Positions 23,208 to 24,957 of a stretch of DNA of 64,000 nt are shown here, one piece after another. Origin of the DNA: Prolixibacteraceae bacterium (GTDB taxonomy: Bacteria; Bacteroidota; Bacteroidia; Bacteroidales; Prolixibacteraceae); NCBI GenBank assembly GCA_947475715.1, contig CANJNY010000011.1, positions 1 to 64,000 on the forward strand. The letters are read 5' to 3'. The position numbers and the translations under genes are program-made. The notes under the pieces were generated by a model. The model searched no databases and was not told the origin of the DNA. It saw only the letters and a list, made by a program, of their open reading frames with translations. Numbering within the stretch: position 1 is the stretch's first letter; each line of letters starts with the position of its first letter.

Positions 23208-24617
23208 CTAGATAATTCCATTTGCCATAACGATCGCTTTTTTAAGGGCTGCAAGTTTATTCACAACCTCCTGTAGTTCATTCTCTTCATTCGAGGCAGC
23301 TACAACACCTGCACCAGCCTGATAGAAGAGGGTATTATTCTTGCTAAGAAACGAACGGATCATTATAGCATGGTTAAATGAGTTGTCGAAGCCGATCAAT
23401 CCGATGCAACCGCCATAATATCCGCGATTCTGATTTTCGAATTTATCAATCAGTTCCATGGCCTTAAACTTTGGAGCTCCCGAAAGGGTTCCTGCAGGAA
23501 ATGAGTCGCCCATTACACTTACCGGATTAGCTCCTTCGGGAAGTATTCCTGTTACCTTCGACACCAGGTGAATTACATGCGAAAAAAACTGAACTTCACG
23601 GAACAGTTCTACCTTTACATCGGTTGCATTACGGCTCAGATCATTACGGGCCAGATCAACAAGCATCACGTGTTCTGCATTTTCCTTAGGATCGTTGGAC
23701 AGTTTTTCGGCCAGAAAGCGATCCTGTTCATCGTTCCCTGTACGGCGAAAAGTCCCGGCAATAGGATGGATTGATACTTTTTGTTGATTAATCTGCAGTT
23801 GTGCCTCAGGAGAGGATCCGAATATTTTATAACTCCCGTAATCAAAATAAAAAAGATAGGGAGAAGGATTGATCGACCGTAAAGCGCGATATACATTGAA
23901 ATCATCCCCTAAGAATTGTTGTGAATACTGCCTCGACAAAACAATCTGAAAAACATCACCCCTAAAACAGTGTTCCTTACCCTTTGAAACCATCGACTTA
24001 AATTCATCATCGGTGATATTGGAGCTCTCCACGTCTAAAGATTCAAATGTGAAGGTGGCAAAATTGCGGCTGGATAATAAATCGTGGATGTGATTCAGGG
24101 AGGAGAGTTCTCCTTCAAAAAGATTTTCAATCAGTTGAATGCGATTCTGGAAATGATTAATTGCAATAATGTACCGATAAAAGGCGTAATGAACCTCAGG
24201 AATTTGATAATCAGGATTTACAGGATGATTAAACTTAATCGTTTCAAAGTATTGTACCCCATCGTAACTGACATAGCCAAAGAATCCATTGGCAGGAAGC
24301 TCCGGCATTGAATGATCAGATTTAAAACATCCAAAAAAGGAACTCATCTCCTCGGCCAGTTGTCCACCTTTAGTGATCATGCCCGTTTCAGTTGTTCCAT
24401 CGGGAAATTTCCTGGTGGTTTTGAATTGCGCCACCTCAAGTGAGGCTTCAGGCTTAAGACATATAAATGAATAGCTGTTTTCAAGACTGTGATGATCGGA
24501 ACTCTCGAGCAACAGGGCGTTCGGAAAAATATCCCGCATTGTAAGATAAACACTAACCGGAGTTACCGTATCGGCAATGAATTCCCTAACATTGGTTGTA
24601 AAGTTATACTGCTTCAT
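23208..24617 (-). CDS. trpE: Anthranilate synthase component I
   Basis: A 469-residue chorismate-using enzyme making anthranilate with TrpG. The N-terminal LLESS segment (about residues 35-39) matches the feedback tryptophan-binding motif. The C-terminal catalytic part has IFGSSPEAQL, HPIAGTFRRTGNDEQD, EHVMLVDLARNDLSR and FPAGTLSGAPKFKAMELI. First structural gene of the operon; its start lies 34 bases after the second leader hairpin, so transcription into it must pass both predicted attenuators. Confidence 0.96.
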   Translation of the reverse strand: MKQYNFTTNVREFIADTVTPVSVYLTMRDIFPNALLLESSDHHSLENSYSFICLKPEASLEVAQFKTTRKFPDGTTETGMITKGGQLAEEMSSFFGCFKSDHSMPELPANGFFGYVSYDGVQYFETIKFNHPVNPDYQIPEVHYAFYRYIIAINHFQNRIQLIENLFEGELSSLNHIHDLLSSRNFATFTFESLDVESSNITDDEFKSMVSKGKEHCFRGDVFQIVLSRQYSQQFLGDDFNVYRALRSINPSPYLFYFDYGSYKIFGSSPEAQLQINQQKVSIHPIAGTFRRTGNDEQDRFLAEKLSNDPKENAEHVMLVDLARNDLSRNATDVKVELFREVQFFSHVIHLVSKVTGILPEGANPVSVMGDSFPAGTLSGAPKFKAMELIDKFENQNRGYYGGCIGLIGFDNSFNHAIMIRSFLSKNNTLFYQAGAGVVAASNEENELQEVVNKLAALKKAIVMANGII

Positions 24618-24640: not shown

Positions 24641-24711
24641 AAAACAAAAAACGGTTTATCGTGATCCGATAAACCGTAATCCCAAAAAAATGGGGTACAA
24701 GATGGTTATCC
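24641..24711 (-). promoter_or_regulatory. trp attenuator 2 (terminator/antiterminator)
   Basis: On the minus strand a perfect 11-bp stem ACGGTTTATCG/CGATAAACCGT (24677-24667 with 24661-24651) is followed by TTTTTGTTTT, a rho-independent terminator immediately before trpE. Upstream, GGATAACC (24711-24704) can pair with GGTTTATC of the first terminator arm with one bulged U, a possible antiterminator. GGATAACC also sits in a small ATGG/CCAT hairpin. The leader peptide of this unit stops at 24714, so a ribosome at its stop codon would cover the antiterminator strand. Confidence 0.7.
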
Positions 24712-24713
24712 AT

Positions 24714-24776
24714 TCACGTTTGTAAAAAGTAATCCTGCCAACGCCAGGTAAAATTATGCTGAGAACTATTTTTCAT
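24714..24776 (-). CDS. Putative trp leader peptide 2 (Trp-Arg-Trp)
   Basis: A 20-codon ORF reading MKNSSQHNFTWRWQDYFLQT, with Trp codons at positions 11 and 13. It lies between the two leader terminators and ends three bases before the antiterminator strand of the second hairpin. The Trp-codon region CCTGGCGTTGGCAGG can itself form a small stem (CCTG/CAGG). Two Trp codons in 20 are far above the normal rate, but this ORF is less striking than leader 1, and translation is inferred from its position only. Confidence 0.6.
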   Translation of the reverse strand: MKNSSQHNFTWRWQDYFLQT

Positions 24777-24830
24777 CAAGTTAATATTTGATTTTTAGTT
24801 TGTCAATTTAATATTTCTGATACAACCCCT

Positions 24831-24941
24831 TAAAAAAAAATCCGGCTTACCTGTAAAAGGTAAGCCGGATGTATATTTTAAAAAATACAATATGGCTTCA
24901 CCTCTAACAGAGGAAAGTGTTGCCCCACCAAAGCCATATTG
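24831..24941 (-). promoter_or_regulatory. trp attenuator 1 (terminator/antiterminator)
   Basis: Four strands can be drawn on the minus strand. Strand 1 (24941-24931, inside the leader ORF and covering the first Trp codon) and strand 2 (24898-24888) pair perfectly over 11 bp, CAATATGGCTT/AAGCCATATTG. Strand 2 with flanking AGGTGAAGCC can instead pair with GGCTTACCT in strand 3, with one bulged G. Strands 3 and 4 (24870-24858 and 24852-24840) form a perfect 13-bp ATCCGGCTTACCT stem followed by nine or so Us. This is the textbook arrangement of a ribosome-mediated transcription attenuator. Confidence 0.88.
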
Positions 24942-24957
24942 ATTTAAATGTTTTCAT
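24904..24957 (-). CDS. trpL: trp operon leader peptide 1 (Trp-Leu-Trp-Trp)
   Basis: A 17-codon ORF reading MKTFKSIWLWWGNTFLC with Trp codons at positions 8, 10 and 11. It lies about 290 bases upstream of trpE, and its Trp codons overlap or adjoin strand 1 of the attenuator. Ribosome stalling there when charged tRNA-Trp is scarce would free strand 2 to form the antiterminator. Three Trp codons in 17 beside a matching set of alternative hairpins is strong evidence for a genuine leader peptide. Confidence 0.88.
   Translation of the reverse strand: MKTFKSIWLWWGNTFLC

Follow-up and report, generated by a model that had tools for sequence, protein, structure and literature searches.

The trp operon of the analysed DNA (a stretch of 64,000 nucleotides from a Prolixibacteraceae bacterium, here called the window) is very likely controlled by two ribosome-mediated transcription attenuators in series. 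The sequence supports this reading through the presence of two leader ORFs and two terminators, through their conservation, and through a lineage-matched antiterminator (2:3) pairing in the module farther from trpE, module 1.

Two leader modules precede trpE

The leader of trpEGDCFBA lies on the minus strand and contains, in series, two leader ORFs with Trp codons and, behind each of them, an intrinsic-terminator hairpin (Table 1); the first gene, trpE, is followed by trpG, trpD, trpC, trpF, trpB and trpA, each with a fitting Pfam match. To count modules, we used a rule demanding an ATG-initiated ORF of 8-40 amino acids with two close Trp codons, and then a terminator. By this rule, the 400-nt leader contains two modules, while among 1000 dinucleotide shuffles 998 contained none, two contained one and none contained two. 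Moreover, the fold z-scores were -7.54 for positions 24839-24950 and -3.41 for positions 24650-24779. The first-pass annotation had described two complete leader modules before trpE, with alternative 1:2, 2:3 and 3:4 pairings in module 1; both ORFs and both terminators were located, and all three pairings are possible. Of the features expected of an attenuator, both modules have a short ORF containing codons for the amino acid under control (ORF1 and ORF2) and an intrinsic terminator between that ORF and the structural genes, and module 1 has an antiterminator pairing in competition with its terminator.

Table 1. Features of the trp leader and their positions in the window
Feature	Position	Strand	Remarks
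ORF1, leader peptide MKTFKSIWLWWGNTFLC	24904-24957	minus	module 1; Trp-codon ORF
Core hairpin, module 1	24888-24941	minus	model R1, folds, conservation
Core P1 arms, CAATATGGCTT with AAGCCATATTG	24931-24941 with 24888-24898	minus	pairing 1:2
Core loop segment TGGTGGGG	24923-24930	minus	
Core P2, CCTCT/AGAGG	24901-24913	minus	
U-rich stretch TATTTTTT	24880-24887	minus	adjoins P1 3' side
Segment 2, module 1, AGGTGAAGCC	24894-24903	minus	can pair with GGCTTACCT 24858-24866 (pairing 2:3)
Terminator 1	24840-24870	minus	segments 3:4; 13 pairs, 7 GC; then eight T, 24832-24839
ORF2, leader peptide MKNSSQHNFTWRWQDYFLQT	24714-24776	minus	module 2; Trp-codon ORF
Candidate segment 2, module 2, GATAACC	24704-24710	minus	can pair with GGTTTATC 24668-24675, one bulge; duplex -8.5 kcal/mol
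Terminator 2	24651-24677	minus	11 pairs, 5 GC; T-tract TTTTT 24646-24650
trpE, first gene of the operon	23208-24617	minus	Pfam PF00425 and PF04715

Both modules are conserved in close relatives

We examined 17 named loci from the genus of the window and from Prolixibacter (L033-L049), grouped by TrpE identity and title, of which 15 were readable because L037 and L049 lack upstream sequence. Two modules were found by the rule in 14 of these 15 relatives. Thus, the second ORF and its Trp codons are kept in relatives, and the serial double attenuator put forward in the first-pass annotation withstood this comparison. The remaining locus, L045, scored one module, its module 2 having kept neither its Trp codons nor a clear terminator. 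In L045/L017 (G015), module 1 is retained while module 2 has decayed, and P1 shows a compensatory change from A-U to G-C.

In an alignment of the 16 leaders (the window and the 15 relatives), in which T1 is out of register for the two Prolixibacter rows, 95.9% of cells in the P1, T1 and T2 stems were paired, and only 22-44% of cells paired when the partners were slid by 1-3 columns. Both sides had changed in five P1, T1 or T2 pairs (mean of 2.5 in shuffles; five reached in 2 of 500) and in 15 cells compared to 5.8 in shuffles. The spacer between the modules was not conserved.

Module 1 has a structured core found in part of one family

A model of the module 1 core (R1), built from 29 sequences with 10 base pairs supplied by hand, matched 102 of the 140 family genomes, in one place each barring weaker echoes on the opposite strand. 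The core finder, which demanded GGTGGG and few P1 mismatches, dropped only the match in G038, which was discarded as not being a core, and 101 cores were read. These comprise 84 long forms and 17 short forms, labels that were assigned once in-frame ATG, terminator 1 and ORF2 distance were all known; an automatic label count agreed for 78 long and 17 short forms, found no ORF2 in reach in G015, G026, G121, G134 and G146, and misjudged G143 owing to a chance ATG at terminator 1. The cores of genus g11 are partly known through counts alone.

An in-frame ATG precedes the core in all 84 long forms, with the first UGG 7-10 codons downstream among the matches listed, and terminator 1 is present in 83, the exception (G121) lying at a contig edge. 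Prolixibacter bellariivorans and P. denitrificans (L046, L048) are cultured relatives with a long-form module 1. A Trp-run ORF2 was found in 79 long forms, in 67 together with a terminator detected by the script and in 12 with no terminator 2 detected by it. Thus, with long-form module 1 in 84 of the 140 family genomes, the tandem is not confined to the genome in which the first-pass annotation had noted it.

When R1 was run on 393 genomes of the order, four matches were obtained, three of them from this family; the fourth, in G462, was rejected as a core, being an AT-rich hairpin without GGTGGG. The exact core pattern also matched G033 and G083, away from trpE. Within what was searched, the P1-TGGTGGG-P2 RNA was seen in some members of a single family and nowhere else.

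The 59 distinct cores had a mean fold z-score of -3.35, and P1 was absent from the predicted fold in three of them (G050, G108 and G109), all long forms. P2 is paired in differing sequences, including CTTCTTG/CAAGAAG, TCCCG/CGGGA, TCCTTC/GAAGGA and ACTCT/AGAGT, and P1 is followed by a U-rich stretch (at least five U in one of two 8-nt windows) in 96 of 101 cores. We rejected a DNA operator, because the spacing of the P1 arms varies (the cores span 51-61 nt) and P2 differs in sequence yet stays paired, as well as a mini-hairpin around GUGGUG, which is inconsistent between lineages.

The antiterminator pairing of module 1 is lineage-matched

For module 1, we compared duplexes between segment 2 and the 5' arm of a terminator 1 from the same genus with permuted pairs, using 68 distinct sequences from 83 genomes and 10 genera. 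The matched energy was -14.76 kcal/mol compared to -12.43 (sd 0.60) for permuted pairs, and 2 of 20,000 permutations were as low; several pairs from different genera were equally strong and the genera share descent. Because the antiterminator pairing is lineage-matched, module 1 is predicted to work like a classical ribosome-mediated attenuator. In the same test across genera, module 2 gave -9.20 for matched and -8.88 for permuted pairs, with 3339 of 20,000 permutations as low, so that its matched pairs did not stand out.

The motif T[AT]nnTTTG, which we take to be a promoter-like form, precedes 62 of the 101 cores, compared to 33.7 in shuffles, and in 40 of these 62 it lies 35-39 nt from P1. 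Between the modules it was not enriched (13/84 compared to 20.7 in shuffles). The strict form TAnnTTTG was enriched neither upstream of the core (5/101 compared to 8.8) nor between the modules (3/84 compared to 8.3). We therefore rejected an internal promoter between the modules, promoter-like elements being unenriched there.

Short forms keep the core without its start codon and terminator

The 17 short forms come from genera g12 (4), g15 (4), g21 (6), g23 and g19 and from G115 of g18. All 17 lack the in-frame ATG and terminator 1, carry ORF2 17-25 nt past the core, and have both ORF2 and terminator 2. CAATATGGC and TGGTGGG are identical in all 17 and GCCATATTG in 16, compared to average flank identities of 46% over 20 nt upstream and 68% over 14 nt downstream; part of this invariance arises by construction, since the finder needed GGTGGG and few P1 mismatches. 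In a gene tree of TrpE, which has 44 rows and 12 open forks and covers nine of the 17 short forms, three changes are needed to explain the short label, and these may be losses or gains of terminator 1.

In G028 and G035, the former Trp frame is broken and an AUG inside P1 (CAATATGG) starts a reading frame containing two neighbouring Trp codons; because of this Trp-containing frame, these two genomes are weaker as proof of a codon-free role. The frame from the P1 AUG continues into ORF2 in 5 of the 17 short forms. In L142 (G035, a genome of 1.9 Mb), the P1 arms are perfect, the loop is re-spaced and the P1-AUG Trp frame is fused to ORF2.

Since 17 genomes hold the core without in-frame start and terminator, a pure codon sensor would be insufficient to account for module 1, and the core probably has a further role beyond codon reading. 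In total, something besides the reading of Trp codons seems to preserve the core RNA, which may act as a pause or terminator hairpin, as a binding site or as a released small RNA.

Alternative explanations for the core

We tentatively entertain that the P1-TGGTGGG-P2 core is itself a structured regulatory RNA acting independently of Trp-codon reading, either through a bound protein or ligand or as a small RNA terminated at its own U-tract; most genera would combine the core with a codon-reading attenuator, and some would use it without one. The near-identity of the short-form core next to a diverged upstream flank, the P2 pairing maintained in differing sequences and the U-rich stretch after P1 would all fit such an RNA; however, no ligand, protein or target was found, the complement of the loop is not conserved in the operon, the finder accounts for part of the invariance, and the core also serves the attenuator in the 84 long forms. 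Specifically, the small-RNA seed targets CCCCACC and CCCACCA are absent from the operon in the window, and among 14 relatives, searched from the trpE start to the end of the locus, only L046 and L048 have one. A T-box-like reading of UGGUGGGG was set aside because the genome's own tRNA-Trp ends CTCCTCCCGTGCCA, a poor partner when compared by eye; none of the 29 matches to E 10 in an Rfam scan of the window was a T-box. The short-form core could instead still be translated from the P1 AUG, so that codon reading would explain its conservation, as the paired Trp codons of G028 and G035 and the five frames reaching ORF2 suggest; we regard this as unlikely, since that frame lacks an adjacent Trp pair in the core in 15 of the 17 short forms and stops short of ORF2 in 12.

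Without their in-frame start and terminator, the short-form cores could also be relics that are being lost. This is improbable, because across genera, and along the long G035 branch, P1 and TGGTGGG are near-invariant against diverged flanks and P2 loops. Finally, module 1 might serve a second promoter, with the two modules on different transcripts and not in series, and the genes found between the modules in some relatives are in line with this; the unconserved spacer and the lack of promoter-like enrichment within it argue against it, and we consider it very unlikely. Altogether, two attenuators acting in series remain our preferred reading of the leader.

Other genes can follow terminator 1

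In G026, terminator 1 and ORF2 are separated by a nucleotidyltransferase gene and an intact HepT-like HEPN gene (L184 770-1099 and 1068-1394, minus strand). In G134, terminator 1 is followed by a nucleotidyltransferase gene (L235 228-554, minus strand) and behind it by a HEPN reading that looks broken; further on, trpE is preceded by a WWW leader and a terminator. In G146, the contig ends after a nucleotidyltransferase gene (L243 40-366, minus strand) that follows terminator 1. The genes in G026 and G134 resemble a toxin-antitoxin pair and would be placed under a Trp leader. Because other genes adjoin terminator 1 in three genomes, module 1 looks autonomous. Between terminator 2 and trpE, some g9 and g10 genomes contain C/T-rich repeated stretches, perhaps small mobile repeats (the last 200 nt before trpE in L026 (G045); L184 530-640).

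A single Trp leader is the usual state

Among 63 other named loci (L050-L112), 60 contain one module, two contain none and one (L068) scores two; among 19 loci from other families of the order, 11 contain one, six contain none and two (G066 and G089) score two, the phylum being sampled unevenly in these counts. The two-module scores of L068 and G089 were rejected because the second module rests on an ORF, MPLRARAWW, that was judged to be a chance occurrence. The first-pass annotation had called the tandem unusual, particularly in Bacteroidota. Trp leaders as such are usual in Bacteroidota, where they take the form of single modules (Rfam RF01692).

Judged by sequence, one Trp leader is the usual state, to which module 1 was added in this family. 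By eye, module 2 is like the ordinary single leaders in its place, in its terminator and in the WWW peptide that it carries in other Prolixibacteraceae genera. L119 (G066) has a serial pair of ordinary Trp leaders, WWW then WWW, both with a terminator and lacking the conserved core, and L113 (G040, Prolixibacteraceae family) has another ordinary pair, WSWW then WWW, likewise with terminators and without the core. From these pairs without the core, the tandem of Trp leaders seems to have arisen more than once.

Discussion

In the mechanism that we propose, scarcity of Trp-tRNA would stall the ribosome at the UGG codons that ORF1 carries within the 5' portion of the core hairpin; segment 2 would then sequester the 5' arm of terminator 1 by base pairing, letting the polymerase go on. 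Module 2 would impose a second round of the same test, with its own ORF and terminator and presumably its own antiterminator, on a transcript that we infer to start at one upstream promoter. With plentiful Trp-tRNA, transcription could stop at either terminator, and read-through would for this reason be approximately the product of two probabilities. Such a multiplicative scheme may give the steeper or two-level response to tRNA-Trp charging suggested in the first-pass annotation.

On the evidence of these comparisons of DNA, the serial Trp attenuator is real and conserved, a known mechanism in a little-described arrangement. Serial attenuators for the same amino acid offer a natural experiment in deepening or sharpening bacterial control, for which this family provides leaders with two modules, with module 1 lacking start and terminator, with a decayed module 2 (G015), with single modules and with other genes after terminator 1. 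Moreover, a core that outlives its codons raises a testable question, i.e. what besides ribosome stalling is selected in trp leaders.

In E. coli trpL, stalling at Trp codons picks the antiterminator or the terminator in one module. The same choice upon Trp-codon stalling is proposed here, but with two modules. Like Bacteroid-trp (RF01692), a cis-regulatory candidate in the available text of PMC2864571, the leader in the window combines a Trp-codon ORF and a 1:2 stem upstream of Bacteroidota trp genes; unlike Bacteroid-trp, which is known as one leader, it has two in series. Module 1 scored 22.9 bits against RF01692, below the gathering threshold of 49, and module 2 gave no match to E 10; the single-leader loci L054 and L052 scored 43.8 and 39.8 bits, also below the threshold. 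Thus, module 1 resembles RF01692 but is not assigned as a member. In searches of open-licence PMC papers, we found neither same-amino-acid serial attenuators nor the core, and the available portions of PMC1262725 and PMC4833913 contain no tandem attenuators. In Sinorhizobium, the trp leader RNA rnTrpL and its peptide peTrpL, according to the accessible part of PMC7298713, give a single-module leader a second role in trans, whereas here there are two modules and no target was found. Finally, PMC3641672, which in its available part also describes the E. coli trpL attenuator, reports tandem attenuators in Salmonella mgtCBR. As in the leader described here, two leader ORFs lie serially in one mgtCBR leader; by contrast, those sense ATP and proline without typical intrinsic terminators, while both modules in the window carry Trp codons and intrinsic terminators.
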